Assembly: GCF_000328305.2 (NCBI RefSeq)
Contig: NZ_ANPE02000072.1
Location: 1 to 64,000, forward strand
Direction: 5' to 3'
DNA length: 64,000 nt
Origin: Arthrobacter crystallopoietes BAB-32
Lineage (GTDB): Bacteria; Actinomycetota; Actinomycetes; Actinomycetales; Micrococcaceae
Shown: one piece after another, positions 12,112 to 59,075 of the stretch
Layout of the letters: each line of letters opens with the position of its first letter
How positions within the stretch are numbered: the first letter of the stretch is position 1
Notes under the pieces: model-generated
Told to the model about the DNA's origin: nothing
The model's input: only the letters and a program-made list of their open reading frames with translations
The model's database searches: none
Program-made: the position numbers and the translations under genes

Positions 12112-12157
12112 CCGTACCTGCAGGAGGTGCGATGTGCATGCAGCGATCGGCGCCGAC

Positions 12158-12169: not shown

Positions 12170-13758
<1,589 letters not shown>

Positions 13759-13878: not shown

Positions 13879-16800
13879 ATGCCGATTTGGTCAAGGCTTG
13901 TGTCGAGTGAAGAGAAGAAGGTAGCCGTGTCTCGCAACCGCGCTGTCGAAGCGGACGGGGGGATCCTGGCCCACTGGCTGCAGCAGTTGGGCCAGCACGC
14001 AGGAACAGACACTCTGCTGTACTACGCGCCGACTCCGACCAACAGCATCGATCTGACGCACGCGCATCCCTCCGGGCTGGCCCAGCTGCTGACCGGCCGC
14101 CGCACCCGGATTTCCACACTGCTGCGGGACCCGGCACACTATGCCGCTGCCATGAAGACCGCCCGCTCGTTGCGGGCGAAGATTTTCGAACTCGGCAATG
14201 AACGGGGCATCGACGTCGGCTATTTGGCTGCCGGAACTGCGTCCTGGCGGGTTCCCGAGGTTGGCCGTTCCGAAGCGCTGTACGCTCCCGTGATGCTTGC
14301 GCCGGTGGCCCTCACCGTCCGGCCGAGCCAGGATGATTTCGAACTCCAGCTGACGGACCAGGCCAGGCTGAATCCGGCCATGGTCCGCCATCTGCGGCAT
14401 GAGCAGGGACTCGAGTTCGACGCCGACGCCGTGGCCCGGCTGGCCTACGGTACCGCCCGGTTCGATCCGCACCCGGTGCTGGAGCGGCTTCGGATCCTGA
14501 CGCAGGATGTGCGCAGCATGACAATCGAGCACCACCTGCTCGTCTCGACCTTCGCGGATGTGGCCCACGCGGTCGACCCGGCCACCGTGGATGCAGACCA
14601 TCCGGTCCTCAACGCCATGATGGCCGCTGAAATGGACCCCGAGAGCGACATCGACGTTCCCCTCCCGGAATCCGGCCTTCCGCCCCTGGACGAGCGTGCG
14701 CCGCAGGACGAGTTCCTGGTCCTGGACGCGGACGCCTCCCAGCAGGAAGTCCTGGACCTCGTACAGGAAGGCCACTCGCTGGTCGTCGCCGCCCCTCCGG
14801 GCACTGGGCAGACACAGACGGCCATCAACGCAGCCGCACTGCTGGCTTACGAGGGTAAGTCGGTGCTGGTCGTCGCCGAGCGGAGGGCGACGCTGAACCA
14901 GTTCGCCACCCAGCTCGATGAGCTCAAGCTCGGCTCCCTGGTCCTGCAGCTGAACCCGAACCTGACCGGCCAGCAGCTGAAGGACCAGCTGATCCGCGCC
15001 ATCGTGCGGAACGAAAAGGCCACGGCACCGCAGCTGGAGAAGCTGCACGCCACGCTGGCCGAGCACCGGCACCAGCTGCAGGACCACGTCAAGTCGCTGC
15101 ACAATGTGCGGAAGCGCTGGAATTGCTCGCCCTACCAGGCCATGCAGTCCCTGGCGAAACTTACCTCGCTGGATCCTGCGCCGGCGACCACCGTGCGGTT
15201 GAAGCGGTCCGTGCTGGACAGCATCACGGACCGCGCGGAGCTGACCGGCCGGCTCCGGCGGGCAGCCGAATTGGGCAGCTTCAGCAAGGCGTCCACAACC
15301 AGCCCCTGGTTCGGCGCCAAGCTGCACAACCGGAAAGAGACCGAGGACGCCCACGAGCTGGCGGCAAGCCTGGCCCGCGACCTCCCGGAGCTGCGTGCAC
15401 AAATGGAGCGGGCGGCCGAACACTCCAAGGTCGCTTTGGGCTCCACCTTCCGGGAGTGGGGCGAGCAGTTGCTCCTCCTCGTTTCCGTTCGCAGCAGCCT
15501 GGATAAGTTCACCCCGGATATCTTCGATCGTCCGGTGACCGACCTGATCTCGGCCACGGCATCTTCCGGCTGGCGCCGGGAGCGAGGCATCGAGATGAGC
15601 TCCATGACGCGCTCCAGGCTGCGTCGGGTGGCCAAGGAATATGTGCGGCCGGGAGTGCACATTTCGGATCTGCACGAGTCGCTGACCGAGGTGCAGGCGC
15701 AGCGCACCAAATGGGCCGAATACGCCACAACCCAGCGACACCCCTCTGTGCCGTCCGGCCTGGCGGAACTGAACGGTTTCTATCTGGACGTGCGCCAGCG
15801 GCTGGGCAAGCTCGGCGCCTTGCTCGCCGCGCCCGAGGACGGCGTCCAGCTGATGGAACTGGAGCTTGGCCTGCTGGGCAGCCGCCTCGAAGCGCTGGCT
15901 GCGGACCGCGAGACCCTGGTGCACTTGCCGGAACGGACGCTGCTGCTGGAACAGATGCGGGAACAGGGACTGGGCGAGCTGCTCGAGGACCTGGCCGACC
16001 GCGAAGTCGGTACCGCCAGCGTGGGCGCCGAACTGGACCTTGCCTGGTGGCAGTCCGCGCTGGAAGCGATGATCAGCGGCGATGACTACCTGGCCATGTC
16101 CGACGGCGACAACCTCCGCAAGGTTGAGGCCGTTTACCGCCTTGCCGACAACGCGCACGTGGCGTCCGGCCCGTCGCGGCTTCGCTGGGAGCTGGCGCAG
16201 AACTGGCGGCATGCCATCAAGAGCAAGCCGAAGGCTGCCGAGCGCCTGCGCGAGCTGCTCAAGTCCGGCGAACCCACGCTGGAAGCGCTGAACGAACAAT
16301 CGGACGCGCTGGTCTCGGCCTTGATGCCGGTCTGGGCCGCATCGCCGCTGGTGCTGCCCACGGTGCTGCCGGCCGCCCAAAACTTCGACGCCGTCATCAT
16401 CCTCGACGCGGAGGCGACCAGCCTGCAGTCGGCCGTAGGGGCCATTTGCCGCGCGTCGCAGATCCTTGCGTTCGGTGACGGACAGCTGGGAACCGCTGAG
16501 CCGTTCGAAACCAATGTGGACCGCCGTCCTGCAGCCGTTGAAGGGAAGCAGCCCGAGCCGCTGGTCAGTGCCTTCCACGCGCTGGAGCGGGTGCTGCCCG
16601 GGCTGCGGCTGACCACGGCCTACCGCGCGGTTGACCTGGGCCTGGCGGAATCCCTGAGCCGTAATTTCTACGGCGGCTCCTTGACCCGGCTGCCGTCCGC
16701 GGCGGAACTGACCGGCGGCGACGGGCTGACGGTCGAATACCTGCCGGACGGAACTGGTCTCCCCGGTGCCGGCCACGAGGGAGTCGAAAGCGTTCCGGCC

Positions 16801-17946
16801 GAAATCAACCGTGTCGTGGACCTGGTGTTCGAGCATGCCCGGTCGCGACCGGCAAGATCGCTGGCAGTTGTCACTGCCACGATGCGCCACGCCGCCCGGA
16901 TCGGCGAGGCCATCAGGCTCCAGATGCCGAACCATCCCGACACGGCGGAATTCTTCCGTTCCTCGGCCGAATCGTTCCGGGTCGTGCCGCTCCAGCGTGC
17001 CTCCGGACTGGTTCGCGACGACATCATTTTCTCCCTGGGCTACGGAAGGACCCCGCACGGCCGCGCCGTCCACAACTTCGGGCCTCTGTCGGAGCCGGAT
17101 GGCAGGAACAGGTTCGCCATGGCCATGACCCGGGCCCGGCACAACCTGCGCGTGCTGACCTGTTTCCGTCCCGAAGACCTCGACCCGGACAGGCTGAACT
17201 ACGGCGCGGCCGACTTCTACGAGCTGATTAGCCGCGCGCTGGGAACCGCGCCGACTGGCGTGCAGGCTTCGCCGGCAGGGATTGAGGATCCGCTGGTCGC
17301 CGATCTGGTCGAGCGTGTCCGAAGCCGCGGCGCGCGGGTGAAGGACCATTACCACGGCGTGCTGGACATCGTCGCGGCGGCGGAGCCCGGTCTGGTGCTC
17401 GACGGTGTCGAGCCGGGACTGCCGGTTGCGCTGGAATCCGACGGCACGGAACAATACCGGAACATGACGGTGCGCGAGCGGAGCCGGCTGCGCCCGCAGC
17501 TGCTCGAGCGCCTTGGCTGGCGGCCGCTGACCCTGTGGACGATCGAGGTCTTCACCGATCCCGAGAAGTGCGCCCAGCTGATCGGAGGATATTTGGGACT
17601 GAAAGAACCGGACGAAACGAAGCCGGGCAGGCACGCCGCTGCTCCCATGCCGGAAGAAGAGACAGCGGACGTCGCCGCACCCACGGGCGGCTCTGAAGCG
17701 GCGGTTGCGGCGCAGGGCACCGGACCGGAGGCGGAACCTGAGATGGAAGCCGGAGATGATCAGGCGCGGGAAGAAGCGCCTGCGGAGCAGCCAGCATCCG
17801 CGGAGCAGCCGCCCGCGACCCGAAAGGCCCTGCGCGAACGGGCCATACCCACCAAGGCAGCCGAGGATGAACCCCGGTCCTGGGGCGAACAGGATGCGGA
17901 CCGGGACGCCTGGCTGAAGGAGCAGCGCCCGCCGCACTGGGGCTAA
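13879..17946 (+). CDS. Very large SF1 helicase-like protein with degenerate ATPase motifs and C-terminal nuclease-fold domain
   Basis: About 1355 residues, resembling the DUF4011/DUF3320 type of superfamily-1 helicase-like proteins. Recognisable parts are an N-terminal DUF4011-like region, a P-loop region (VVAAPPGTGQTQTA, about residue 306-318), a coiled-coil-prone middle, a motif II/III region (about 836-860), IIFSLGYGRTPHG with the motif VI-like AMTRARHNLRVL (about 1078), and a C-terminal REase-like domain (ERLGWRPLTLWTIEVF) followed by a low-complexity acidic/proline tail. The Walker A lysine is Gln, the DEAS-type motif II reads LDAEAT, and GDPKQ is GDGQL. ATP hydrolysis is therefore doubtful. 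TAGCTT seven bases before the ATG at 13879 suggests a leaderless start; a GTG at 13927 with AGAAGG upstream is the alternative. The cellular role is unknown. Confidence 0.75.
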   Translation: MPIWSRLVSSEEKKVAVSRNRAVEADGGILAHWLQQLGQHAGTDTLLYYAPTPTNSIDLTHAHPSGLAQLLTGRRTRISTLLRDPAHYAAAMKTARSLRAKIFELGNERGIDVGYLAAGTASWRVPEVGRSEALYAPVMLAPVALTVRPSQDDFELQLTDQARLNPAMVRHLRHEQGLEFDADAVARLAYGTARFDPHPVLERLRILTQDVRSMTIEHHLLVSTFADVAHAVDPATVDADHPVLNAMMAAEMDPESDIDVPLPESGLPPLDERAPQDEFLVLDADASQQEVLDLVQEGHSLVVAAPPGTGQTQTAINAAALLAYEGKSVLVVAERRATLNQFATQLDELKLGSLVLQLNPNLTGQQLKDQLIRAIVRNEKATAPQLEKLHATLAEHRHQLQDHVKSLHNVRKRWNCSPYQAMQSLAKLTSLDPAPATTVRLKRSVLDSITDRAELTGRLRRAAELGSFSKASTTSPWFGAKLHNRKETEDAHELAASLARDLPELRAQMERAAEHSKVALGSTFREWGEQLLLLVSVRSSLDKFTPDIFDRPVTDLISATASSGWRRERGIEMSSMTRSRLRRVAKEYVRPGVHISDLHESLTEVQAQRTKWAEYATTQRHPSVPSGLAELNGFYLDVRQRLGKLGALLAAPEDGVQLMELELGLLGSRLEALAADRETLVHLPERTLLLEQMREQGLGELLEDLADREVGTASVGAELDLAWWQSALEAMISGDDYLAMSDGDNLRKVEAVYRLADNAHVASGPSRLRWELAQNWRHAIKSKPKAAERLRELLKSGEPTLEALNEQSDALVSALMPVWAASPLVLPTVLPAAQNFDAVIILDAEATSLQSAVGAICRASQILAFGDGQLGTAEPFETNVDRRPAAVEGKQPEPLVSAFHALERVLPGLRLTTAYRAVDLGLAESLSRNFYGGSLTRLPSAAELTGGDGLTVEYLPDGTGLPGAGHEGVESVPAEINRVVDLVFEHARSRPARSLAVVTATMRHAARIGEAIRLQMPNHPDTAEFFRSSAESFRVVPLQRASGLVRDDIIFSLGYGRTPHGRAVHNFGPLSEPDGRNRFAMAMTRARHNLRVLTCFRPEDLDPDRLNYGAADFYELISRALGTAPTGVQASPAGIEDPLVADLVERVRSRGARVKDHYHGVLDIVAAAEPGLVLDGVEPGLPVALESDGTEQYRNMTVRERSRLRPQLLERLGWRPLTLWTIEVFTDPEKCAQLIGGYLGLKEPDETKPGRHAAAPMPEEETADVAAPTGGSEAAVAAQGTGPEAEPEMEAGDDQAREEAPAEQPASAEQPPATRKALRERAIPTKAAEDEPRSWGEQDADRDAWLKEQRPPHWG

Positions 17947-17960
17947 GCCACCTGCCGCCA

Positions 17961-18620
17961 TTAGCCGACCAGGACCAGGAAGACCTTGCCGCGGCTGCTG
18001 GCGCTGGCCAATGCCGCAGCTTCGGACGGGGAAGCGGCCACGACAACCAGTCCATCGCTTTCCTGCGGACCGAGCAGGCCAGCGTCTGTCCCGCTGCTGT
18101 CGGCTTTCCACAGCACCGGGACACCGTCCGCGAGGACGGTGGTTTCCTCCGGATCCTCATAGCCGTTTCCGGTGCTGAGGACAATGTCCACCAATTGCCC
18201 CGGGGCCACCAGCTGAACAGTGGACTTGTCCGCAGGACGCACCGGAACAGCGGCGGTTCCCGGCGGTGCGCCGGCCAGCAGGCCGGGACCTATCACGGAT
18301 GTATCCAGTACGGGAGAGCCTCTACGCAGGGCAGTAGCCAGACGCTGGCCGGACAGATCGGTGGCAGCGGCGGAAGCTCCCGGCGGTACAGCGAACGCCG
18401 GCACGTCGACGACCTGCAGATCTGCATCTCCCAGCAGAGTGCCGGCGGGCAGATCTGCGGCCGCCGTGAGGACGGGCACGGTGTGTACCGGATCAGGCGT
18501 GAGGGCGTGGACGCCGACCCCGGCGGCCGCGCAAAAACAGGCCGCGGCGAGGAAACGGTAATGGCGCCGGACGATTCGCCGGAGCACGCGGAAGAGTCCG
18601 GCCGGAGAAATACGTTGCAT
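17961..18620 (-). CDS. SAF domain-containing protein (CpaB/RcpC-like)
   Basis: A 219-residue membrane-anchored protein. A basic N-terminus (RRIVRRHYR) leads into a hydrophobic segment at about residues 23-40, then an extracytoplasmic SAF domain with the usual PAGTLLGDADL, and a further beta-rich domain. The architecture resembles CpaB/RcpC proteins of Flp-type pilus machinery, but no pilus genes are nearby. Actinobacteria often have such a gene next to an fmdB homologue, as here. It lies convergent to the large helicase-like gene with 14 bp between stops. Confidence 0.75.
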   Translation of the reverse strand: MQRISPAGLFRVLRRIVRRHYRFLAAACFCAAAGVGVHALTPDPVHTVPVLTAAADLPAGTLLGDADLQVVDVPAFAVPPGASAAATDLSGQRLATALRRGSPVLDTSVIGPGLLAGAPPGTAAVPVRPADKSTVQLVAPGQLVDIVLSTGNGYEDPEETTVLADGVPVLWKADSSGTDAGLLGPQESDGLVVVAASPSEAAALASASSRGKVFLVLVG

Positions 18621-44507: not shown

Positions 44508-44775
44508 GATTTTCGGGCCCACGGTTGCAGCAGACGCGATCCGGGCAGGCCTGGTTTAGGACTTCCGCTTATCTGCGATGCGTGCCTCGCTGATTCCAGC
44601 CGGGCCGTGGGGGTCGGGCATCCCGGTGGACAAGTTTGCCCGCGAGCCGATCCTGAGACAGGACACGGTGGAGCCTGGGTTAAACAGCCCGACGACAGTC
44701 GACTGTTGGCGGCAAGATATCCACAAATGGCAAGAAGCTGGCTTGGGGAGCACATTGCTGCCCAAGAATCGTCGT

Positions 44776-45300
44776 ATGGGAATCAGATATTACGCATACG
44801 CATTCGACAAGGATCAGGCAGAGAAGGCGCTCGCCGACCCACTCACTGTGATCGGCTCCGACCCGCTCGCGGATGCGTGGGGCCTCCTGCCGGCCTCCAT
44901 ACAGGGCGTCACAGAGGGTCGACAACCTTTGCCGGAGCATGACTTCCTCTACCTCGACAAGGCATGGCCGTACCTGCAGCGGCTGACTGCTCCGCCCACT
45001 CCAAGTGCGGGCGCCAGACCCGCTTACCTGATGTTCGAAGGGGACGTGACGTACACCGACTGTGGTCTCTCGTGGCATCCCTGGCTGCGCACGCTCCTGC
45101 CTCCTGAAGTCGCCTTGATCGCGCGGGACCTGGAGGCGATCAGCGACCACGAGATCGAAGCGGGCCTGGGAGAGATCTCTTCGCCTCATCAGTCTCTGAA
45201 GTCCGAAGTAGCCTATGCCACCGACTTTTTCCATCGAGCCAAGGCCTTCGTCCATGCCGTGGCCTCGGAGGGGCGGGGATTCGCCTACATGATCGGTTGA
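44776..45300 (+). CDS. DUF1877 family protein
   Basis: A 174-residue protein beginning MGIRYYAYAFDKDQAEKAL, similar to the YfbM/DUF1877 family of unknown function. It continues with LDKAWPYLQRLT, GDVTYTDCGLSWHPWLRTL and a C-terminal helical part (ATDFFHRAKAFVHAV). ATG 44776 is chosen for the family-like start; the open frame extends to 44578 without similarity. No obvious ribosome-binding site. The 270 bp upstream (44508-44775) hold nothing recognisable. Confidence 0.7.
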   Translation: MGIRYYAYAFDKDQAEKALADPLTVIGSDPLADAWGLLPASIQGVTEGRQPLPEHDFLYLDKAWPYLQRLTAPPTPSAGARPAYLMFEGDVTYTDCGLSWHPWLRTLLPPEVALIARDLEAISDHEIEAGLGEISSPHQSLKSEVAYATDFFHRAKAFVHAVASEGRGFAYMIG

Positions 45301-45399
45301 CCACAGTACAGCGGTAACGTACCGCGATGGGCAGCTTGGGGAAGTGCTCCGGCCGCAGTTGCGGTGTCTCTGCCCCTGTTGCCAGGGAGGGTGATGGGT

Positions 45400-45411
45400 T
45401 ATGGTGGGCCC
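45400..45411 (+). promoter_or_regulatory. -10 element of leaderless formate dehydrogenase promoter
   Basis: TATGGT (45400-45405), then six bases, then the ATG at 45412. No Shine-Dalgarno sequence at suitable spacing. Confidence 0.5.
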
Positions 45412-48400
45412 ATGTCGCGGTTCAGCTTTCTGGGGTGGCCGGTTGTCCGGCAATTCGGGTCGGGTGATCCACTCGGCCGCGGCGAAGCCGTAACATCTCC
45501 GAAGACCCGCGTGATCTCGCCGCGGACCTCGACTGCCGACCGGGTTGTTCAAAGCGTGTGCCCCTACTGCGCCGTCGGATGCGGCCAGCGCGTCTTCGTG
45601 AAAGACGAGAAGGTAGTCCAGATCGAAGGGGATCCGGATTCACCCATTTCCCGTGGGCGGCTCTGCCCGAAAGGATCAGCCAGCGAGCAACTGGTCAACG
45701 CGCCCGGCAGGCAGACAAAGGTGCTCTATCGGGCCCCCCACGCCAAGGACTGGCAGCAGTTGGACCTGGAGTCCGCCATCGAGATGGTGGCGGACAGATT
45801 CCTTGAAGCGCGTCGGAACAACTGGCAGCAGAACGATGAGCACGGCCGGCCGCTGCGCCGCACGATGGGCATTGCCGGCCTCGGCGGGGCCACGCTGGAC
45901 AATGAAGAGAACTACCTGATCAAGAAGCTCTTCACCGCTGCAGGAGCCATCCAACTGGAGAACCAGGCCCGCATTTGACACTCCGCCACGGTTCCCAGTC
46001 TGGGAACCTCGTTTGGGCGGGGCGGCGCCACACAATCGCTCCAGGACATGGCCAATGCCGACTGTATCGTCATCCAGGGCTCGAACATGGCCGAATGCCA
46101 CCCAGTCGGCTACCAGTGGGTGACGGAGGCGAAGGCACGGGGCGCGAAGGTCATCCATGTGGACCCGCGGTTCACCCGAACCAGCGCGGTGGCTGACAAA
46201 CACGTGCCGATCCGCGCGGGATCGGACGTCGTGCTGCTCGGTGCCCTGATCAACTATGTGATCAGCAACGAGTTGTGGTTCAAGGAGTACGTCCTTGCCT
46301 ACACCAACGCATCGACGTTGGTCGGCGAAGACTTCCGGGACACCGAGGACCTGGACGGCCTGTTCTCCGGATTCGATCCCGAGACCGGGCAGTACGACCT
46401 GTCTTCCTGGGCCTATGAGCGGAAGAGCGGGGCGGAAGCGCCCGGCGGACACGAGCACGGTGCTGATACTTCTGCACGGGCGGCCGGGCACCAATACGGT
46501 AGCGGCGGCCCGCCGCTGGGAAACCCTAAGTTTGAGCAGGACCCGACGCTGGAGCACCCGCGGACCGTCTTCCAGATTCTCAAGCGGCACTATGCCCGTT
46601 ACACGCCCGAGATGGTCGGCGAGGCCTGCGGCATTTCCCCCGAGGATTTCGACTATCTGGCCCGGGCCGTCACGGAGAATTCCGGACGGGACCGGACCAC
46701 GTGCTTCGCGTACGCCGTTGGGTGGACGCAACATACTCTGGGTGCCCAATTCATCCGAACGGCAGCGATCCTGCAGTTGCTGCTGGGCAATATAGGACGG
46801 CCTGGCGGCGGAGTCATGGCGCTGCGCGGCCATGCCAGCATCCAGGGTTCCACCGACATCCCGACCCTGTTCAATTTGCTGCCGGGCTACCTCCCGATGC
46901 CCAAGGCCGAGATGGAAACACTGCAGCAATACCTGGACGGCATTGCCTCGCCAACCCAGAAGGGATACTGGGCGGCTGCCGACACCTACACCGTCAGTCT
47001 GCTCAAAGCCTGGTGGGGCGATGCGGCCAACGAGGACTCGGAATGGGGCTACCAGTACCTGCCCCGGATCAACGGACCCCACGGTACATATGAGACGGTC
47101 ATGAGCATGCTCAACGACGACGTCGAGGGCTACTTCCTCTTCGGCCAAAACCCTGCCGTCGGTTCGGCCCATGGACGCATGCAGCGGCTGGGCATGTCAC
47201 ATTTGAAGTGGCTGGTGGTGCGGGACCTGAGCCTGATCGAATCGGCTACCTGGTGGAAGGACGGTCCGGAAATTGCTTCGGGTGAACTCAAGACCGAAGA
47301 CATAGCTACCGAAGTCTTCTTCATGCCTGCAGCCACCCATGTGGAGAAGGCCGGTTCCTTCACCCAGACGCAACGGATGCTCCAATGGCGCCACCAAGCT
47401 GTCCGGCCACCGGGCGATTGCCAGAGCGAACTGGAGTTCTTCTATGAACTGGGCAAGCGGATTCGGGCGAAGCTGGCGGATTCGTCCGATGAACGGGACC
47501 GGCCACTGCTGGACCTGACCTGGGACTATCCCGTCGATGAACACGGCGAGCCCGACGGCGAAGCGGTGCTCGCGGAAATCAACGGCAGGCATCTCACCGG
47601 GCCGCAGGCCGGCAGGCCCCTCTCGTCCTACACCGAGATGCGCGCCGACGGCTCGACATCGGGCGGATGCTGGATCTACACCGGAGTCTACGCGGACGGT
47701 ATCAACCATGCCGCCGACCGGAAGCCTGGCCGGGAACAAGGCCCAGTCGCGCCCGAATGGGGCTGGGTATGGCCCGCGAACCGGAGGATTCTCTACAACC
47801 GGGCTTCCGCGGATCCCGATGGCAAACCATGGAGCGAACGCAAGAAGTACATTTGGTGGGACCCGGAGCAGAGCCGGTGGACCGGAGAGGACGTGCCGGA
47901 CTTCCCTGTGGACCGCGCACCGGGGACTACCCCGAATCCCGGGGCGGGCGGGGCCGCGGCGCTCGCAGGCGACGATCCCTTCATCATGCAATCGGACGGC
48001 AAGGGATGGCTGTTCGCGCCTAAGGGCATGGTGGACGGACCCCTGCCGACGCACTACGAGCCCCAGGAGTCTCCGATCGCCAACCCGCTTTACCGACAGC
48101 AGCAGAACCCTGCCCGGTTAACCTATCCGCGCGCGGACAACCTCAGCGCGCCCAGTGCAGGTGAGCCAGGCTCCGAGGTCTATCCGTATGTCTTCACCAC
48201 GTACCGGCTGACGGAGCATCACACTGCCGGTGGGATGAGCCGGTGGCTACCCTATCTCTCCGAACTCCAACCGGAAATGTTCTGCGAAGTGTCCCCGGAA
48301 CTGGCAGCCGAACGGGGACTGGAACCGTACGGCTGGGCCACCATCATCTCGCCCCGTTCGGCGATCGAGGCGCGAGTTCTGGTGACCGAACGAGTGAAGC

Positions 48401-48711
48401 CGCTGAACGTTAGTGGACGGACCTTCCACCAGATCGGCTTGCCCTACCACTGGGGCATCGGGCAGGACGCCGTGGTTTCCGGCGACGCCGCCAACGATCT
48501 GCTCGGCGTGACGCTCGATCCCAACGTGCAGATCCAGGAGTCCAAGGCCGGCTCGTGTGACATCGTCCCGGGGCGGCGGCCACGTGGCGCCGCACTCCTC
48601 TCGCTGATCGCTGAATATCAGACCCGTGCGGGGGTGACACCGGAGACCGGCAACCAGAAGCTCACCGGTCCCGGCCGGGCAACGGGCCACGAGACGAAGG
48701 AGGAGTACTGA
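45412..48711 (+). CDS. fdhA: Formate dehydrogenase alpha subunit, selenocysteine-containing (TGA at 45976 read as Sec189)
   Basis: Catalytic molybdenum/tungsten-bis-MGD subunit oxidising formate to CO2, 1099 residues when the in-frame TGA at 45976-45978 is read through. The N-terminal [4Fe-4S] site is CPYCAVGCGQ...RLCPKG. The sequence around the TGA, ENQARI-U-HSATVPSLGTSFGRGG, matches the active-site Sec of FdnG/FdhA enzymes. Downstream the same frame stays open for 910 codons with MGD-binding GSNMAECHPVG, HVDPRFTRTSA and QNPAVGSAHGRMQ. A hairpin follows the TGA. No clear twin-arginine signal is visible. fdhB follows at once, and SelA/SelB/SelD/tRNA-Sec lie 2-6 kb downstream. Conventional gene callers will split it in two. 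Confidence 0.93.
45976..46008 (+). promoter_or_regulatory. SECIS element of fdhA mRNA
   Basis: Eleven bases after the TGA, GGTTCCC / GGGAACC forms a perfect 7-bp stem with a five-base AGTCT loop (45997-46001). Loop and distance are close to the known E. coli fdhF SECIS (GGUCU loop), which recruits SelB with Sec-tRNA. It is embedded in coding sequence. Confidence 0.8.
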
Positions 48712-49716
48712 ATGAACCGGCTGACCGAATTTCCGGACCACGTCAGGCAAACGGGCCATCCCCGGAAGGGCTTCTTCACTGACACGTCGATCTGCATCGG
48801 GTGCAAGGCATGCGAGGTCGCGTGCAAGGAGTGGAACCGCAATCCCCACGACTCAAAAGACTCAGGATACGAGCTGCTCGAGTCTTCCTACGACAACACC
48901 GGGTCTCTAGGAGCGGACACTTGGCGGCACGTCGCGTTCATCGAGCAGGACCAGGAGCAAATCGTCCGGGCCCGCGAATCCGGCCGGGCGCTTGTCAGTC
49001 TCGGCATGCCCGGCTTCGGCCCACCGCGGCAGGACCAGGCGCCCAACCTTGCCGGCGCGGACACGAGGCCGCCGGACACCCCGGACTTCCGGTGGCTGAT
49101 GTCCTCCGACGTATGCAAGCACTGCACCAACGCCGGGTGCCTCGACGTCTGCCCCACCGGTGCCCTGTTTCGCACAGAGCATGGAACCGTCGTCGTACAG
49201 GACGACGTGTGCAACGGCTGTGGAACCTGCGTGGCAGGGTGCCCGTTCGGGGTGATCGAGCGGCGCAGCGACGGGACGGCAGGACCGAAGACCGAACGCG
49301 ACTTCACCCCAGGGGAACAGGCCCCGACGCGCAACGTCGGCGTCGCCCAGAAGTGCACCTTGTGCTACGACCGCATGGTCGATGGTCAGACTCCCGCGTG
49401 CGCCCAAGCCTGCCCTACGACGTCGATCAAGTATGGCGAGCGTGAGGAGCTGGTGGCCACCGCGAAGGAACGGGTGGCGGAACTGCACGCGCAGGGGCTG
49501 ACGGAGGCCCGGCTCTACGGAGCCAATGATTCCGACGGCGTGGGCGGCACGGGGTCTGTCTTCCTGCTGCTGGACGAACCGGAGGTGTACGGGCTGCCGC
49601 CGGATCCGCGGGTGCCTACGGCGGACCTTCCGCGCATGTTCAAGCGGGCAGGCATTGCCGCCGCCGGCATGCTGGCCGCCGCCACCGCGGCCTTCCTCGT
49701 GGGAGGCCGGGTTTGA
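48712..49716 (+). CDS. fdhB: Formate dehydrogenase beta subunit (4Fe-4S ferredoxin type)
   Basis: A 334-residue electron-transfer subunit. Four Cys clusters are visible: CIGCKACEVACKEW near residue 28, CKHCTNAGCLDVCPTGAL, CNGCGTCVAGCPFGV, and CTLCYDRM...CAQACPTTSI. These are enough for four [4Fe-4S] clusters linking the catalytic subunit to the membrane. A C-terminal hydrophobic segment (AGIAAAGMLAAATAAFLVGG) anchors it. The ATG directly follows the fdhA stop, and the next gene overlaps its stop (TTGA). Confidence 0.93.
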   Translation: MNRLTEFPDHVRQTGHPRKGFFTDTSICIGCKACEVACKEWNRNPHDSKDSGYELLESSYDNTGSLGADTWRHVAFIEQDQEQIVRARESGRALVSLGMPGFGPPRQDQAPNLAGADTRPPDTPDFRWLMSSDVCKHCTNAGCLDVCPTGALFRTEHGTVVVQDDVCNGCGTCVAGCPFGVIERRSDGTAGPKTERDFTPGEQAPTRNVGVAQKCTLCYDRMVDGQTPACAQACPTTSIKYGEREELVATAKERVAELHAQGLTEARLYGANDSDGVGGTGSVFLLLDEPEVYGLPPDPRVPTADLPRMFKRAGIAAAGMLAAATAAFLVGGRV

Positions 49717-50795
49717 CGGTTTCCGACTTCGACGAATACCGCCCGCCCGAACCGCCTCGCTGGCGCAAGCGGGGCGGCAAGCGCCGCCGCGCTGGGATGG
49801 GCGGGGACCGCGGGGAAGTGCCGATGGTTCCCGAGGCCGGGTTCACTTCCTACTACGGACGGCCGGTCGTCAAGCCGCCGCCGTGGGGAGACCCGATAGC
49901 CGTTTACCTCTTCCTGGGGGGAGTGGCCGGCGGCTCGGCGCTGCTCGGCGTCGGTGGGCAGCTGACTGGCAACCCGATACTGTGCCGCAACAGCCGCCTG
50001 GCCGCGCTCGCCGCCGTCGGGATGGGAGCCGCGGCGCTGGTGGAGGACCTGGGCCGTCCCGAGCGGTTCCTCAACATGCTTCGCACCATCAAGCTCACAT
50101 CGCCGATGAGCCTGGGCTCGTGGATTCTGACGGCTTTCAGTGCCGGCGTCGGAGTCTCAGCCGTTTCCGAAATCGATCGGATGACCGGTTCGCGGCTGCC
50201 GCTCGGGCCGCTGCGCCGGCTGCTTCGTGGGCTCGAGGGGCCGGCTGGAGTGGAAGCTGCGGTGTTCGCAGCCCCGCTGTCCGCCTACACCGCTGTCCTG
50301 CTCTCGGACACCGCGAATCCGACTTGGAATGCCGCCCGGGAGGATTTGCCCTTCGTCTTCGTCAGTTCTGCCAGTCTCGCCGCGGCGGGCCTCGCCATGA
50401 TCACCACCCCGGCCAAGGAGGCCGCACCAGCTCGGGCGCTCGCCGTGCTCGGAGTCGCCGGCGAGCTGATCGCCACCCGACGCATGGAGAAAAATATGGA
50501 CCCGGTCGCGGCCGAGCCTCTGCACTTGGACGGGCCTGGACGGATGCTGGCCTGGAGCGAGCGGCTGGCCGTCGCCGGAGGTGTCGGCGCGCTTTTCGGA
50601 GCCCGGCACAGGCTTATCGCGGCACTGTCGGGGGTAGCGCTGCTCGGTGCCTCGGCCCTAACCCGGTTCGGGATCCTGCGCGCGGGCATCCGCTCCACAG
50701 ACGATCCCCGCTACACGATCGAACCGCAGAAGAACCGGCTCGCGGCACGCCGCCGAGCGGGCGTCATCCACGATTCGATCACTACCGCCGAATGA
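49713..50795 (+). CDS. NrfD-family membrane subunit of formate dehydrogenase
   Basis: A 360-residue integral membrane protein of the NrfD/polysulfide-reductase PsrC type, likely passing electrons from the Fe-S subunit to menaquinone. An extended basic cytoplasmic N-terminus (about 60 residues) precedes roughly eight hydrophobic segments (AVYLFLGGVAGGSALLGVGG, LAALAAVGMGAAALVEDLG). VEDLGRPERFLNMLR is a family hallmark. It replaces the haem b gamma subunit of FDH-N enzymes. The start is TTG overlapping the fdhB stop, with GGGAGG upstream. Confidence 0.88.
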   Translation: MTVSDFDEYRPPEPPRWRKRGGKRRRAGMGGDRGEVPMVPEAGFTSYYGRPVVKPPPWGDPIAVYLFLGGVAGGSALLGVGGQLTGNPILCRNSRLAALAAVGMGAAALVEDLGRPERFLNMLRTIKLTSPMSLGSWILTAFSAGVGVSAVSEIDRMTGSRLPLGPLRRLLRGLEGPAGVEAAVFAAPLSAYTAVLLSDTANPTWNAAREDLPFVFVSSASLAAAGLAMITTPAKEAAPARALAVLGVAGELIATRRMEKNMDPVAAEPLHLDGPGRMLAWSERLAVAGGVGALFGARHRLIAALSGVALLGASALTRFGILRAGIRSTDDPRYTIEPQKNRLAARRRAGVIHDSITTAE

Positions 50796-50860: not shown

Positions 50861-51874
50861 CTAGCGGACCTCGATTCCGGGGCCCGCCGTCGTGTGTCCC
50901 ACGATGGGGTGCCCGGGCAGTTCGCCTACGACGAGCAAGCCGCCGGAGGTCTGGGCGTCGGCAAGCATCAGCAAGTCCTCTTCGGAGATTCCCGGTCCAG
51001 GCCGCAGATGGGGACGGACCCACTCCAGATTTCGCCGGGTTCCACCCGAGATGAAGCCGTCCCGAAGCGCTTCACGTGCGCCGGAGACCAGTGGGACTGC
51101 TTTTCGGTCGATGACTGCACCCACGCCGGAGGCCCGGCACATCTTGAAGAGGTGGCCCAGCAGGCCGAACCCAGTGACATCCGTTGCGGCCCGGAGACCG
51201 CACTGCACGGCTGCCTCGGAGGCCTCTCGGTTCAACTGCACCATCGTGGCGATGGCCTCGGCGAATACCTCGCCGGTCTGCTTGTGCCGATTGTTGAGCA
51301 GGCCCAGGCCGATCGGCTTGGTTAGCGTGAGCGGCAGCCCGGGCGTGGCAGCATCGTTGCGAAGCAACTTATCCGGGTCGGCGACGCCGGTTACCGCCAT
51401 TCCGTATTTGGGTTCCAGGTCATCGACTGAGTGCCCTCCCGTCACCGGGCAATCAGCCTCTGAGGCAACTGCCAGTCCGCCGCGCAGAACCTCGGCCAGC
51501 AGCTCCATCGGCAGCACGTCCCGCGGCCAGCCGACAAGATTGATGGCGCTGACGGGGCGCCCGCCCATGGCATAGATGTCGGAAATAGCGTTCGCCGCTG
51601 CGATGCGTCCCCAGTCGTAGGCGTCATCGACCACTGGAGTGAAGAAATCCGCCGTCGAGAGTATTGCGAGGTTGTCGCCGACCAGCACCGCCGAGGCATC
51701 ATCGCCGCCGTCGAGCCCGACCAGAACGTCGGGGTGGCTCTGTCCTGCCAGGCCACCGACAACATCCTCGAGCTCCCCGGGGGGAATCTTGCAGGCGCAC
51801 CCGCCGCCATGGGCGTGGCTGGTGAGCCGGACTGCTCCGGACTGTTCCTGATCTGGGGCCATGATCCCGTCCAT
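50861..51874 (-). CDS. selD: Selenide, water dikinase SelD
   Basis: Makes selenophosphate from selenide and ATP, the Se donor for Sec-tRNA synthesis. The 337-residue protein has the active-site loop GGGCACKI with Cys26 and Lys29 aligned to Cys17/Lys20 of the E. coli enzyme, so this SelD uses Cys, not Sec. GLDGGDDASAVLVGD and TADFFTPVVDD are the ATP/metal-binding segments, and GGHSVDD the conserved mid-region. It is encoded opposite to the other sel genes, convergent with the NrfD gene and divergent from tRNA-Sec (43 bp apart). Confidence 0.95.
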   Translation of the reverse strand: MDGIMAPDQEQSGAVRLTSHAHGGGCACKIPPGELEDVVGGLAGQSHPDVLVGLDGGDDASAVLVGDNLAILSTADFFTPVVDDAYDWGRIAAANAISDIYAMGGRPVSAINLVGWPRDVLPMELLAEVLRGGLAVASEADCPVTGGHSVDDLEPKYGMAVTGVADPDKLLRNDAATPGLPLTLTKPIGLGLLNNRHKQTGEVFAEAIATMVQLNREASEAAVQCGLRAATDVTGFGLLGHLFKMCRASGVGAVIDRKAVPLVSGAREALRDGFISGGTRRNLEWVRPHLRPGPGISEEDLLMLADAQTSGGLLVVGELPGHPIVGHTTAGPGIEVR

Positions 51875-51917: not shown

Positions 51918-52012
51918 GGAGGCGTCCGGGTCCTGGTGGGTCCCCCGGTCTTCAAAACCGGTGAGGCCGAGTAGCTCGGCCTGGCGGGTTCGATTCCCGT
52001 CCGCCTCCGCCA
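51918..52012 (+). tRNA. selC: tRNA-Sec (anticodon TCA)
   Basis: A 95-nt tRNA including encoded CCA. The acceptor arms GGAGGCG and CGCCTCC pair, followed by discriminator G. The anticodon loop holds TCA (CTTCAAA), reading UGA. A long variable arm (GGCCGAG / CTCGGCC) and T arm GCGGGTTCGATTCCCGT are present. The extended acceptor and large variable arm are typical of bacterial tRNA-Sec. It lies between divergent selD and selA. Confidence 0.95.
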
Positions 52013-52048: not shown

Positions 52049-53380
52049 GTGGGCAAGGACGACACGCGTCGGCTTATTCCGCGCACCGACCGGCTGCTCG
52101 CGCACCCGGAGCTCCAGGGCCTCCGGGGACGCCTCGGCGAAACTGTGATCCGTTCCATCATTCAGGAGATCCAGGACCAGGCGCGCTCCGGGGAGCTTGC
52201 GCCCGAGGACGTCGAACCAGAGATCCTGGCCGCCGTGGCATCCCGCGAGGCCACGTCCTTACGACCGGTGCTCAATGCCACCGGCGTCATCGTGCACACG
52301 AACCTGGGACGCGCCCCGCTGTCGAAGTCCGCGCGAGAAGCTTTGCTCACGGCCGCCGGTTATGTCGACGTCGAAATGGACCTGCCATCCGGAATGCGCT
52401 CACGTCGCGGCGCCGGGGTGCGTCAGGCACTGTTGCGAGCGTGTCCCTCTGCCGAGGACGCGCTGGCGGTGAACAACGGAGCGGCCGCCCTGCTGCTGGC
52501 CACCAGCGTCCTGGCCGGCACCCGCGAAGTGGTCATCAGCCGCGGGGAGCTCGTCGAAATCGGCGCCGGCTTCAGGCTTCCCGAACTAATCGAATCGGCT
52601 GGTGCCCGTTTGCGGGAAGTGGGTGCCACCAACCGGACTCATGTGGGCGATTACAAGTCGGCTATGGGGGAGCAGACTGGCTGCCTGCTCAAGGTCCACC
52701 CGAGCAATTTCCAGATCACTGGTTTCACCTCCGGCGTCAGCGTCAGCGAACTCCGGTCTCTGGCCGATGAACATCATGTCCCCTTGGTGGTGGATCTCGG
52801 CAGCGGTCTGCTCAGTCCGGACCCCGTGCTGCCTGTGGAGCCCGATGTCGCTAGTGCGCTGACAGCCGGTGCCGACGTCGTCATCGTGAGCGGTGACAAA
52901 CTCTTGGGCGGCCCGCAATCAGGAATCCTGCTCGGCCGCGCCGAAATCATTGCCAGGATGGCACGCCATCCGCTGGCCCGGGCGCTTCGGATGGACAAAC
53001 TGGCACTGGCCGCCCTGGAAGCGACCGTTTCCGGGGAAGTGACGCCGGTGACTGCCGCCCTGCACGCCGACCCGGGGCGCCTCCGTGAGCGCACCGAGGC
53101 CCTCGCGGAGGCTGTAGCCTGTGTCGTCGTTGAGCACGACGGCAGGGTCGGCGGCGGGGGAGCACCCGGCGTGCTGCTGCCCGGCTGGGCAGTCCGGCTC
53201 CCCGAGAGTGCGGCCCGGTCGCTGCGCACGGGCAGTCCGGCTGTGCTGCCCCGGGTCCACCGCGGTGCCTGCCTGGTGGACCTACGGTGCATCCCTGAGG
53301 ACGACGATGAACGCCTGGCAGCCGCGGTGCGAGCAGCCCTGGCGCAGGCTGGCGAGGCGCTCGGGACCGGAGGCAGCTGA
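52049..53380 (+). CDS. selA: L-seryl-tRNA(Sec) selenium transferase SelA
   Basis: Converts Ser-tRNA(Sec) to Sec-tRNA(Sec) with selenophosphate. The 443-residue PLP enzyme has an N-terminal tRNA-binding helical region, NATGVIVHTNLGRAPLS, NNGAAALLLA, and the PLP lysine at about residue 284 in VSGDKLLGGPQSG. The GTG start follows AAGGAGGG. selB begins 2 bp after the stop, so the pair is cotranscribed. Confidence 0.96.
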   Translation: MGKDDTRRLIPRTDRLLAHPELQGLRGRLGETVIRSIIQEIQDQARSGELAPEDVEPEILAAVASREATSLRPVLNATGVIVHTNLGRAPLSKSAREALLTAAGYVDVEMDLPSGMRSRRGAGVRQALLRACPSAEDALAVNNGAAALLLATSVLAGTREVVISRGELVEIGAGFRLPELIESAGARLREVGATNRTHVGDYKSAMGEQTGCLLKVHPSNFQITGFTSGVSVSELRSLADEHHVPLVVDLGSGLLSPDPVLPVEPDVASALTAGADVVIVSGDKLLGGPQSGILLGRAEIIARMARHPLARALRMDKLALAALEATVSGEVTPVTAALHADPGRLRERTEALAEAVACVVVEHDGRVGGGGAPGVLLPGWAVRLPESAARSLRTGSPAVLPRVHRGACLVDLRCIPEDDDERLAAAVRAALAQAGEALGTGGS

Positions 53381-53382: not shown

Positions 53383-55170
53383 ATGTTCGTGGTGGCCACT
53401 GCCGGGCATGTCGATCATGGCAAGAGCACTCTGGTGCGTGCACTGACCGGAATGGAGCCTGACCGGTGGGCCGAGGAGCGCCGCCGCGGACTGACGATTG
53501 ACCTGGGATTTGCATGGACCAGGCTGGCGTCGGGCAGGGATGTCGCGTTCGTGGACGTCCCCGGGCACGAGCGATTCCTCGGTAATATGCTGGCCGGGCT
53601 GGGGCCGGCGCCCGCCGTGTGTTTCGTCGTCGCCGCTGACGAAGGCTGGCAGGCCCAGTCCAGCGACCATCGCGATGCCATCGCTGCCTTGGGGATCAGC
53701 CATGGGATCGTGGTGCTGACCCGCAGCGACCGCGCACCCGGCGGCACAGACGAGGTACTCGCGCGAGTGCGCGCCGAACTCGACGGTACCGGGCTGCGCG
53801 ATGCGCCGGCGGTGACTGTGTCCGCGGTCGACGGGAGCGGGCTCGACGAGCTGCGCAACGCACTGGATGACATGGTGGCGTCATTGCCCGAACCGGAGCC
53901 AGACGCCCGAGTCCGGTTGTGGATCGATCGATCGTTCAGCATCAGTGGCGCCGGCACGGTCGTGACCGGAACCTTGACGGCTGGCACACTCACCGAGGGC
54001 AATCGATTATTGCTCGTCCGCCACAACGACGCCGGACAAGTTTCGGTGAGGGCCCTGCACAGCTGCAACTTGGCCGTTGGCTCCGTCGGTCCTACCAGCC
54101 GCGTCGCGGTGAACTTCCGGTCCGGGCCGTCCGCAGACGCCATCCATCGGGGCGACGTTCTTATTACCGGGGATAGCTGGCCGGTGGTGGATACCGTCGA
54201 CGTCCGGCGCACGATGGGTGCCTCCTTCACAGACGTGCCGACCCAACTGCTCGTCCATATCGGCACCGCAGCCGTGCCGTGCCGAATGCGCCCCTTGGGT
54301 GCAGGCCACGCCCGCCTGACCCTCGGCCGCCGGGTTCCTCTCGAACTGGGCGATCGCATGGTGCTGCGGGCCGCTGGTAGCCGATCGGTCCTCGCCGGAG
54401 CGCAGATCCTCGACGTCGAACCGCCCGCGCTCGGTCGCCGCGGCGATAGCCGCCGGCGCGCCGACGTCCTCGCTGCTATGTCACCTAATGGGAACGGGTT
54501 GACGGAAGTGGCCCGCCGGGGCGCGGTCCGCGTCGAGCAATTGCGCCGGATGGGGGTTTCCGGCCTGGCCCGGGTGCCCGACGGAGTCAAGGCCTTCGGC
54601 GAGTGGTGGGTGCATGCACCGGTCTTCGACACATGGGCACGCCGACTGCGCAGCGCAGTGGAGCAACTCGTCGAGAAGGACCCTTTGGCGGCCGGGCTCT
54701 CCCGCGGAGCGGCCCAGGACCTCCTCGGACCGGCGGGTAGCGCGCTGCTGGAAGCGGTTGTCCGGGAAGCGGGACTGACGTATCGGGCTGGCTTCGTCAA
54801 TTTGCCAAGGCCGCCCCAGAACCTCGGTGCGGCCGAGGCCGGGATCCGCGTGCTGGAGAATCGGCTGAAAATTGCGCCGTTCGCTGCTGCCGAGGCCCAC
54901 GAGCTGAAGGACCTCGGCTTGGGCACCCGCGAACTGGCGGCGGCTGAGCGCAGCGGCCGCCTGCTGAGGCTTGATGACGGCGTCGTCCTGCTGCCAGGGG
55001 CACCTGCCCTGGCCATGCGCGAGATCGCCGCCTTGCCACAGCCGTTCACGACCAGCGAGGCACGCAAGGCGTTGGGCACCACCCGGCGGGTCGTGATCCC
55101 GCTCCTCGAGTACCTCGACGGCCGCGGCTGGACTCGGCGACTCGATGCCACTAGACGCACCGTCACCTGA
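53383..55170 (+). CDS. selB: Selenocysteine-specific translation elongation factor SelB
   Basis: A 595-residue GTPase that delivers Sec-tRNA to UGA codons marked by a SECIS hairpin. G1 is GHVDHGKST (8-16), the switch region GLTIDLGFAW, and G3 DVPGHERF. NKXD is represented by TRSD. EF-Tu-like domains 2 and 3 follow, and the C-terminal third is the winged-helix array that binds SECIS RNA (ending ARKALGTTRRVVIPLLEYLDGRGWTRR). It partners the fdhA SECIS in this window. Confidence 0.96.
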   Translation: MFVVATAGHVDHGKSTLVRALTGMEPDRWAEERRRGLTIDLGFAWTRLASGRDVAFVDVPGHERFLGNMLAGLGPAPAVCFVVAADEGWQAQSSDHRDAIAALGISHGIVVLTRSDRAPGGTDEVLARVRAELDGTGLRDAPAVTVSAVDGSGLDELRNALDDMVASLPEPEPDARVRLWIDRSFSISGAGTVVTGTLTAGTLTEGNRLLLVRHNDAGQVSVRALHSCNLAVGSVGPTSRVAVNFRSGPSADAIHRGDVLITGDSWPVVDTVDVRRTMGASFTDVPTQLLVHIGTAAVPCRMRPLGAGHARLTLGRRVPLELGDRMVLRAAGSRSVLAGAQILDVEPPALGRRGDSRRRADVLAAMSPNGNGLTEVARRGAVRVEQLRRMGVSGLARVPDGVKAFGEWWVHAPVFDTWARRLRSAVEQLVEKDPLAAGLSRGAAQDLLGPAGSALLEAVVREAGLTYRAGFVNLPRPPQNLGAAEAGIRVLENRLKIAPFAAAEAHELKDLGLGTRELAAAERSGRLLRLDDGVVLLPGAPALAMREIAALPQPFTTSEARKALGTTRRVVIPLLEYLDGRGWTRRLDATRRTVT

Positions 55171-55626
55171 ATCGGAAGCGGGGGCGGGTGGACTCGCGTG
55201 ACGCGTTAGTGAGTGGCCGGGCGGGTCTGCCGATCGGCCCTCGTGGACGGGCACGGCAATGGCAATTCCAGTTAAGCGCCAATAACTGATATGTGCTGCA
55301 GAAGCCGGTCGAGCTGCCTCTGGGGCCGGCGGTTTTCACTCTTAGCGTCGGGTTTGCCGCTTATTCCCAAGGGATTCCGGGCTCCATCGTCCGCAGGCCA
55401 TCGAAGGGTCCGGGTACCTGTTACCGGTGCAGTCTTGATTGCATATCCATAACATCTGAGTTGTGAAGCAAAATTTTTATACCCAATTTGCGGACGCAGG
55501 ATTACGCTCTTATCCATGTGAGATGAGTCACGGCTGTCGGTGGTACCTAAATCGTTCAATCCGACCCGTGGGAGTCTCCGGATGACCTCGCAGAGGCATC
55601 TTCATCATGAGATACAAGGAGGCGGA
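55171..55626 (+). other. Intergenic region between selB and the oligopeptide operon
   Basis: 456 bp without a convincing gene. The first part is GC-rich like its neighbours. From about 55430 to 55520 it is notably A/T-rich (AAATTTTTAT at 55471-55480, TTGATT at 55435, TATACC at 55478), so the promoter of the downstream binding-protein gene is probably here. No -35/-10 pair with good spacing could be fixed. AAGGAGGCGGA, just before 55627, is the ribosome-binding site. Confidence 0.5.
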
Positions 55627-57426
55627 ATGCGTTTCGGACGTTATTCCAAGGCAATCGGAGTTGCAGCAGTCGCGGCTCTGGCACTGAGCGCCTGCGCATC
55701 GGCAGGCGGCGGGGCCGAATCCACGGGGGAAGCCAACGCCACAGGCGGAACCATCAGCGTTGCCGAAGTCAACGCTTTCAGTTCGTTCAACTCCGACACT
55801 GCCGCAGGCAACGTCGATATCAACGGCAAGATCGCCTACATGACACGCGGCGGCTTCTACCACATCGACAATGAGCTCAATGTTGTCCGGAACGAGGAAT
55901 TCGGAACCTACGAAAAGATCTCCGACGACCCGCTGGTCGTGAAGTACACAGTCAATGAGGGCGTCACCTGGTCCGACGGCGAGCCCGTCGACGCCGGCGA
56001 CCTGATGCTCAACTGGGTCGCAGAATCGGGCTACGCGAACGACGCCACAAGCAACGAAGAGGGCGAAGTCACCTCCGGCACCAACTACTTCGACTACGCC
56101 GGCGACACCAGCGGCCTGGGCCTGACCGAAATCCCGGAAGTGGGCGATGACGGCCGCTCGATCACGCTGACCTACTCGAAGCCCTATGCGGACTGGGAGA
56201 TTGCTTTCGGCGGCCTGACTGACGGCGGCATCGGCATGCCGGCGCATGTTGTCGCCGAAAAGGCCGGCTTGGCTGACGAACAGGCACTGATCGATCTGAT
56301 CCAGGGCCTGGAACGCGGCGACGCGGAGAGTCCGGCGGAACCCAACGCAGAGCTGAAGGCTGTCGCGGACTTCTGGAATACCGGCTTCGACAGCAAGCAG
56401 CTGCCCAGTGATACCTCCCTGTACCTCTCAAGCGGGCCGTTCGTCGTGGACAGCGTAACGCCGGACCAGTCCATCACGCTTGTACGGAACGAGTCCTACA
56501 ACTGGGGTCCGACACCCAACGTGGACGAGATCACCGTGCGCTTCATCGGTGCCGCCCCGGACCAGGTCCAGGCGCTCGAGAACGGCGAAGTCGACATCAT
56601 CGCCCCGCAGCCGTCTGCCGATACCGTGGAGCTTTTGGAAGCCATCGACGGTGTCAAGGTTGAGATCGATGACCAGCTGTCATACGACCACATCGACCTT
56701 AACTACTCGGGTGTCTTTGAAGACGCGAACGTGCGCGAAGCGTTCATGAAGGCCGTTCCCCGGCAGGCGATCGTGGACCGCATCGTCAAGCCGATCAAGG
56801 AAGATGCCAAGCCGTTGAACTCCCAGTTCTTCGTTCCAGCGCAGGATGCCTACACCACGTCCGCTGAAAACAACGGATCCTCGGCCTACGGGGAAGCGGA
56901 CATCGAAGGCGCGAAGGAGCTGCTGGGTGGCGAGACTCCGGAAGTGCGCATCATGTACAACAAGGACAATCCGAACCGTGCTGACGCCTTCTCCCTGATC
57001 CAGGAGTCCGCCGAACAGGCCGGATTCAAAGTTGTCGACGGCGGACTCGGGGCATCCGACTGGGGAGCCGCCCTTGGCAAGGGAGGCTATGACGCCACGA
57101 TCTTCGGGTGGATCAACTCCGGTGTCGGAGTCTCCGGCGTGCCGCAGATCTTCCGCACCGGAAGCGGCTCGAACTACAACGGATTTTCCGATCCTGAGGC
57201 CGACGCCCTCATGGATGAGCTGATGGTCACCATCGACCCTGCAGAGCAGGACAAGCTGATCACGCAGATCGACAAGATCGTGTGGGACTCCTTCTACGGC
57301 CTGCCCTTGTTCCAGGCAGTTGGTTTGGACGCCTACAACAGCGACCGGATCGAAGGCATTGTGTACCAGCCGAACCAGACCGGCGTGTTCTGGAACTTCT
57401 GGGACTGGAAGGTCAAGGGCGAATAA
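55627..57426 (+). CDS. Oligopeptide/dipeptide ABC transporter substrate-binding lipoprotein
   Basis: A 599-residue family 5 solute-binding protein (OppA/DppA type). A signal peptide with lipobox (ALALSACAS) leads into the typical domains: VKYTVNEGVTWSDGEPVDAGDL near the start, SSGPFVVDSVTPDQSITLVRNESY, DHIDLNYSGVFEDANVREAF, and a C-terminal part with DVALDPxx-like FWNFWDWK. ATG 55627 has AAGGAGG directly upstream. It is first gene of a transporter operon; a hairpin separates it from the permease genes. Confidence 0.9.
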   Translation: MRFGRYSKAIGVAAVAALALSACASAGGGAESTGEANATGGTISVAEVNAFSSFNSDTAAGNVDINGKIAYMTRGGFYHIDNELNVVRNEEFGTYEKISDDPLVVKYTVNEGVTWSDGEPVDAGDLMLNWVAESGYANDATSNEEGEVTSGTNYFDYAGDTSGLGLTEIPEVGDDGRSITLTYSKPYADWEIAFGGLTDGGIGMPAHVVAEKAGLADEQALIDLIQGLERGDAESPAEPNAELKAVADFWNTGFDSKQLPSDTSLYLSSGPFVVDSVTPDQSITLVRNESYNWGPTPNVDEITVRFIGAAPDQVQALENGEVDIIAPQPSADTVELLEAIDGVKVEIDDQLSYDHIDLNYSGVFEDANVREAFMKAVPRQAIVDRIVKPIKEDAKPLNSQFFVPAQDAYTTSAENNGSSAYGEADIEGAKELLGGETPEVRIMYNKDNPNRADAFSLIQESAEQAGFKVVDGGLGASDWGAALGKGGYDATIFGWINSGVGVSGVPQIFRTGSGSNYNGFSDPEADALMDELMVTIDPAEQDKLITQIDKIVWDSFYGLPLFQAVGLDAYNSDRIEGIVYQPNQTGVFWNFWDWKVKGE

Positions 57427-57533: not shown

Positions 57534-59075
57534 ATGGTGACGTACATTGTGCGGCGGCTCTTCACAGCCGTACTTATTCTCCTAGGGGCTTCCTTCCTGG
57601 TGTACCAGCTGACCGCACTGTCGGGTGACCCCCTGGCGGACTTGCGGGAAAGCAACCAGCCGAACAAGGAACAGCTCATCCAGCAGCGCATCGAACTGCT
57701 CGACCTGAACGTTCCCGCACCGGTCCGATACTTCCACTGGCTCGGTGGAGTCGCCCAGTGCCTGGTGCCGTTCGTGGGCCAATGCGACCTTGGCTATGCG
57801 ATCAACGGCCAGCCCGTGACCGAAGCCCTCGGCCGGGCGATGGGCATGACCATCCTGCTGGTGACGGGTGCGGCGGTGCTGGCCATCATTCTCGGCGTCT
57901 GCCTGGGCATCGTCACTGCGCTCCGCCAATACAGCACGCTGGACTACGGCGTGACGTTCATGGCCTTCCTCTTCTTCTCGCTGCCCGTGTTCTGGGTGGC
58001 TGTTTTGCTCAAGGAATATGCGGCGATTGGCTTCAACAACTTCCTGCGCGAGCCGCATATCCCGATCGCGACGATAGCGGTCATCGCTTTTGTCAGCGGA
58101 GTGCTGTGGTTCATTTGCTCCCGTGGGACGGTTCAGCGCCGGTTGTTGGCTGCGGCTGTCGGCTTTGTCCTGGCTGGTGCCATTCTGTGGGTGCTGTCGG
58201 TAACGCGCTGGTTCAGTACACCGGGCTTGGGTCTTGCCGTGATCCTGATAGCAGGGGTCGCCATTGCCTTCGGCACAACGGCCCTCGCTGCCGGGCTGAA
58301 GAACCGCAGGGCGCTCTATTCCGCCCTGGCAACAGTGGCCATCGGCCTCGTGCTGTATTTCCCGATCCAGCCGCTGCTGGCCCAGGCCACGACCCTGATG
58401 ATCGCCCTGCTGGCCGTGGCGACGGTGCTCGTCGGTATCGCCGTCGGCTATTTCATGGGCGGCTATGATCGCCGCCAGAACATCAACGCGGCGACAATTA
58501 CAGCCGTTCTTGTCGCCGGGATGGTCTTGCTGGACCGGTACATGCAAGCCTGGCCCGCTTATTTCGGCAATTCGCGGATCAACGGCCGTCCAATTGCAAC
58601 GATCGGCTCTGAAACGCCGAACTTGAGAGGCGACTACTGGGTGCAGGGCCTGGACACCTTCACGCACCTGCTGCTGCCCACCACCGCCCTGCTGTTGATT
58701 TCGTTGGCCTCGTACAGCCGCTATGCACGCTCCTCGATGCTGGAAATCATGAACATGGACTACATCCGCACGGCCCGCGCCAAAGGGTTGGGGGAACGGA
58801 CGGTCGTGATGCGCCATGCCTTCCGGAACGCCCTGATTCCCATCGCCACGATTGTGGCGTTCGACATCGGCGGCCTGATTGGCGGCGCGGTGATCACCGA
58901 GAGAGTCTTCGCCTTCGCAGGCATGGGCCAGCTCTTCATCGAGGCGCTGCTGCGCGTGGATCCGAATCCCGTCATGGGCGTCTTCCTAGTCACCGGCATC
59001 ATGGCATTGGTATTCAATCTGATCGCCGATCTGGTCTACTCAGCATTGGATCCGCGAGTGAGGGTAAAGGCATGA
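57534..59075 (+). CDS. Oligopeptide ABC transporter permease (DppB/OppB-like, enlarged)
   Basis: A 513-residue permease, against about 310-340 for ordinary DppB. The N-terminal YIVRRLFTAVLILLGASFLVYQL and the first helices are standard. After KEYAAIGFNNFL an insertion of roughly 170 residues carries about five extra hydrophobic segments (IPIATIAVIAFVSGVLWFIC through ATITAVLVAGMVLLDRYMQ). The core then resumes with LDTFTHLLLPTTALLLISLASYSRYARSSMLE and the ATPase-docking loop IRTARAKGLGERTVV. It overlaps the next permease by 4 nt. Confidence 0.88.
   Translation: MVTYIVRRLFTAVLILLGASFLVYQLTALSGDPLADLRESNQPNKEQLIQQRIELLDLNVPAPVRYFHWLGGVAQCLVPFVGQCDLGYAINGQPVTEALGRAMGMTILLVTGAAVLAIILGVCLGIVTALRQYSTLDYGVTFMAFLFFSLPVFWVAVLLKEYAAIGFNNFLREPHIPIATIAVIAFVSGVLWFICSRGTVQRRLLAAAVGFVLAGAILWVLSVTRWFSTPGLGLAVILIAGVAIAFGTTALAAGLKNRRALYSALATVAIGLVLYFPIQPLLAQATTLMIALLAVATVLVGIAVGYFMGGYDRRQNINAATITAVLVAGMVLLDRYMQAWPAYFGNSRINGRPIATIGSETPNLRGDYWVQGLDTFTHLLLPTTALLLISLASYSRYARSSMLEIMNMDYIRTARAKGLGERTVVMRHAFRNALIPIATIVAFDIGGLIGGAVITERVFAFAGMGQLFIEALLRVDPNPVMGVFLVTGIMALVFNLIADLVYSALDPRVRVKA

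Follow-up and report, generated by a model that had tools for sequence, protein, structure and literature searches.

In the fdhF gene of E. coli, the stem of the SECIS element has a bulged U and its loop is GGUC. No bacterial selenoproteins are more widespread than FdhA and SelD, and the selenocysteine (Sec) trait of Arthrobacter crystallopoietes BAB-32 has been listed as a case of horizontal transfer (PMC5029168). A fdnG-selABCD region with a UGA codon was described in Corynebacterium aurimucosum (PMC2830990). In A. chiangmaiensis DSM 45062, selenite was needed for formate removal, and a homologous formate dehydrogenase (FDH) was detected at the protein level along with SelA, SelB, and SelD (PMC7176365). 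Both the Sec trait in Arthrobacter and the dependence of formate oxidation on selenium, in an actinobacterium whose enzyme is homologous, are, then, already in the literature.

Here, we analyzed a 64,000 nt stretch of the BAB-32 genome ("the window"), where an FDH gene interrupted by an in-frame TGA lies next to genes of Sec decoding. Our main reading, which we give a probability of about 0.97, is that the product would be a membrane-associated Sec formate dehydrogenase of the actinobacterial FdhABC type, encoded beside a complete selD-selC-selA-selB set, with the UGA read as Sec189.

The reading frame of fdhA

The gene fdhA, coding for the FDH alpha subunit, occupies positions 45412-48711 of the forward strand and, when read through, yields a protein of 1,099 amino acids. 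Among its 1,099 codons the TGA at 45976-45978, codon 189 of 1,100, is the sole internal stop and is in frame with both halves of the gene; the terminal stop, at the start of fdhB (48709-48711), is likewise a TGA. The DNA at the site reads CAGGCCCGCATT-TGA-CACTCCGCCAC-GGTTCCC-AGTCT-GGGAACC, and the translation around the TGA is QARI-U-HSATVPS. Over residues 6-1071, the read-through protein matched the NCBIfam family NF041513 (actinobacterial formate dehydrogenase) with 1947.7 bits, where the cut-off is 1400; with 926.9 bits, it was above the cut-off of TIGR01553 (formate dehydrogenase-N alpha; 814.2) as well. Thus, a full-length match to an FDH alpha family spans the in-frame UGA, as was expected from the original prediction that the identical frames on the two sides of the TGA make up one FdhA.

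The best relatives with solved structures found by phmmer were 1h0h (3e-208) and 1kqf, the E. coli FdnG (5e-206). In both alignments the TGA residue stands opposite X, i.e., selenocysteine, the catalytic metal-ligand position that is taken by either Sec or Cys. The alignment to FdnG/FdhA that had been proposed as a check has, therefore, placed the TGA exactly where the active-site Sec had been predicted. By homology, FdhA would carry a Mo/W-bis-MGD cofactor and is likely to be an active enzyme.

A mechanical list of open reading frames cuts fdhA in two (45364-45978 and 46048-48711). It had been anticipated that standard annotation would report two such broken pieces. For current RefSeq this remark fails, since the ortholog on the plasmid pYA7-1a is annotated as one CDS of 3,333 nt across the UGA, and the Tsukamurella ortholog is likewise a single full-length CDS.

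The fdh and sel genes

All the genes of the cluster are on the forward strand, except for selD. The alpha subunit gene is followed by fdhB (48712-49716), the gene of a 4Fe-4S beta subunit with Fer4 domains, whose best match was TIGR01582 FDH-beta at 165 bits, below the family cut-off of 334.7, and by fdhC (49713-50795), coding for an NrfD-like membrane subunit (PF03916, 68.7 bits). On the opposite strand, selD (50861-51874; TIGR00476, 376 bits) codes for the Cys form of selenophosphate synthetase, with the Cys located within a GGGCAC motif. The tRNA-Sec gene selC, with anticodon UCA, was detected at 51918-52012 by ARAGORN and by RF01852 (79.3 bits). It is followed by selA (52049-53380), the gene of L-seryl-tRNA(Sec) selenium transferase (TIGR00474, 421 bits), and selB (53383-55170), the gene of the Sec-specific elongation factor (TIGR00475, 263.5 bits, over the cut-off), which includes the SECIS-binding winged helix (PF09107, SelB-wing_3). 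All four components of bacterial Sec decoding that had been claimed for the window were thus located. FdhD, which takes part in the maturation of such enzymes, is encoded elsewhere in the genome.

With these components, the UGA could be decoded as follows. SelD would make selenophosphate, and SelA would convert Ser-tRNA-Sec to Sec-tRNA-Sec. SelB, bound to a hairpin that begins 11 nt past UGA 45976, would bring Sec-tRNA-Sec to the ribosome, and the codon would be decoded to give Sec189, the ligand of the catalytic metal. Translation would terminate at the last UGA (48709-48711), which lies outside the hairpin's cover.

One could suppose instead that UGA 45976 is a programmed stop, or a leaky one read through with a standard amino acid, and that the two halves are separate proteins. 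The context UGA-C, generally known as weak for termination, would suit such a scheme, but the catalytic residue falls at the TGA itself, the next open reading frame starts only at 46048, 23 codons downstream and within a conserved domain, and a complete Sec machinery lies next to the gene and is inherited with it. We consider this explanation very unlikely.

Several other features of the window were observed. A 240-aa open reading frame just upstream of fdhA (44578-45300, forward strand) matched nothing in Pfam or NCBIfam; in the set of 80 relatives, its homolog was found beside fdhA in A. mangrovi only (69%). Directly after selB, the forward strand codes for a substrate-binding protein of an Opp/nickel-type ABC transporter (55540-57426) and, judging from the sequence, for a putative permease of such a transporter (57534-59075); transporter genes of this type are also situated 3' of selB in the loci L050 (A. 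mangrovi), L051, L053, and L111. Two very long open reading frames, 13831-17946 on the forward strand (1,371 aa) and 13891-18111 on the reverse strand (1,406 aa), overlap in antisense; the latter had no Pfam match at 1e-6.

The hairpin downstream of the UGA codon

The hairpin GGTTCCC-AGTCT-GGGAACC (45990-46008, forward strand) can be read directly in the DNA in the form originally described, with a 7-bp stem, an AGTCT loop, and a start 11 nt past the TGA; its arm 45990-45996 pairs with 46002-46008. Among all the TGA triplets of the window (750 on the forward and 679 on the reverse strand), the fdhA TGA is the only one followed by a perfect hairpin of 7 bp and 5 nt at the same spacing. A search for a bacterial SECIS, proposed along with the original prediction, was successful in part. 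The Rfam model SECIS_3 (RF01989) matched 45973-46033, over the UGA and the hairpin, which is the correct placement; still, this weak match of 30.4 bits (E-value 2.3e-4) is below the gathering threshold of 63 bits, and the site is not filed as a member of the family. The site does have the features expected of a bacterial SECIS: the hairpin is conserved, its spacing from the UGA is constant, and its apical loop contains G/U.

Homologs were collected in a phylum-wide draw of 296 genomes and in a scan of named genomes. The active-site motif was shared by 110 loci, among them that of the window itself. The codon at the Sec position was TGA in 109 loci and TGC (Cys) in one. Additional internal TGAs seen in four loci (L017, L018, L019, and L035) were rejected as natural gene ends.

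We observed that the two inner pairs of the stem which join third codon positions (17-29 and 20-26, counted from the TGA) were paired in all 72 distinct UGA-bearing sequences. One of these pairs was T-A in 45 sequences, C-G in 22, T-G in four, and G-C in one, while the other was C-G in 68 and G-C in four. For a set of 30 sequences the covariation score was 0.270, compared to 0.117 ± 0.016 after shuffling, and it was lower in every slid register of the hairpin; the outermost pair was open in 10 of the 30. The loop codon was AGT or GGT in 109 of 109 UGA genes, while elsewhere in these genes 13% of Gly residues were encoded by GGT and 4% of Ser residues by AGT.

The single locus with TGC, L014 of genome G038, is a natural Cys counterpart. 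Its hairpin is destroyed (CGTTGTC-GGGCT-GGGCAGT), and neither a SelB above the family cut-off nor a tRNA-Sec above the gathering score was detected in G038, as one would expect of a genome that has no need of Sec. In the UGA genomes that we tested, tRNA-Sec was always above the gathering score, and SelB was above the cut-off in all but G074 and G096, where it was just under.

The hairpin might be thought of as a by-product of protein conservation or of high GC content, particularly as several stem positions are fixed by the Val-Pro and Leu-Gly codons. Compensatory changes among T-A, C-G, and G-C at third codon positions leave, however, the pairing unexplained by protein constraint, and neither the loss of the hairpin in the Cys homolog nor the invariance of an uncommon T-ending loop codon in the Sec genes agrees with such an origin, which we find extremely improbable. 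The substitution patterns show that the hairpin is an RNA signal; Sec would be inserted into FdhA at the UGA.

When the whole genome was searched with a model built here (R1), the fdhA site scored 70.6 bits, and the next best site had 21.6 bits with E-value 0.3. No second significant SECIS site was found in the genome with R1, so a further selenoprotein of the same SECIS type is not evident.

Selection downstream of the TGA

The FdhA of A. mangrovi is 94% identical to that of the window. Between these two genes, 254 of the 325 base differences downstream of the TGA, as well as 39 of the 48 upstream, are at third codon positions. Such a concentration on both sides of the TGA in comparison with close relatives shows that the downstream part is translated in the fdhA frame and indicates that purifying selection continues past the TGA. 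The two pieces in the mechanical list could also be produced by a sequencing error at 45976 or by a recent nonsense mutation in a pseudogene of a Cys-type FDH, but this is hardly credible given that in homologs from independent genomes the same place is taken by TGA, not by a Cys codon, and the hairpin is conserved, that selection persists downstream, and that the 1,099 codons have no other stop.

Distribution and mobility

The fdhABC-selD-selA-selB block was syntenic in most of the 80 named relatives, either in the gene order of the window or with fdhA preceded by the sel genes. A tRNA-Sec was present in 15 of 16 relatives examined. Within the genus, FdhA was found in six of ten genomes, and SelA in exactly those six.

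The same block is located at 8001-17874 of pYA7-1a (NZ_CP110115.1, Arthrobacter sp. YA7-1). This plasmid was assigned to the conjugative type, and the block on it is flanked by the genes of an integrase (upstream) and a Tn3-family transposase (downstream). On this plasmid the block is possibly a mobile module of Sec decoding together with its client enzyme. In our view, the chances are even that in Micrococcaceae fdhABC-selDCAB, present also on this conjugative Arthrobacter plasmid, behaves as a Sec-coding module that is self-contained and moves horizontally, client enzyme and decoding machinery traveling together.

Comparison with known systems

The Sec-FDH arrangement described here is real, ordinary, and already known, being common to many actinobacteria and annotated in public databases. 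The original interpretation was right, as all tests at the level of sequence favored it; the exception is its remark on annotation. It is a textbook case of a stop codon re-read as Sec, in which compensatory changes at silent sites keep up a hairpin that is lost in the Cys homolog. Mechanistically it adds nothing new. In practice it serves as a reminder of how simple ORF callers break up Sec genes, while RefSeq does not do so for close relatives.

In comparison with E. coli FdnG and FdhF, the Sec is at the same position, and a hairpin with GU in its loop follows soon after the UGA. On the other hand, FdhA has only ~38% identity to the FdnG type, no FdnG-like twin-arginine signal was seen at its N-terminus, and, with respect to the fdhF SECIS, the stem is unbroken and the loop is [A/G]GU[C/U]U. 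The likeness to actinobacterial Sec FDHs is much closer. The active-site UGA is common to the NF041513 family (formate_DH_Act), pYA7-1a, A. chiangmaiensis FDH1, and C. aurimucosum fdnG; with the last three, the SECIS or Sec machinery and the FdhABC subunits or gene cluster are shared as well. In pYA7-1a the gene order with selD, selA, and selB is the same, and FdhA is 81% identical. From the actinobacterial Sec FDHs of NF041513, the locus shows no difference of substance.
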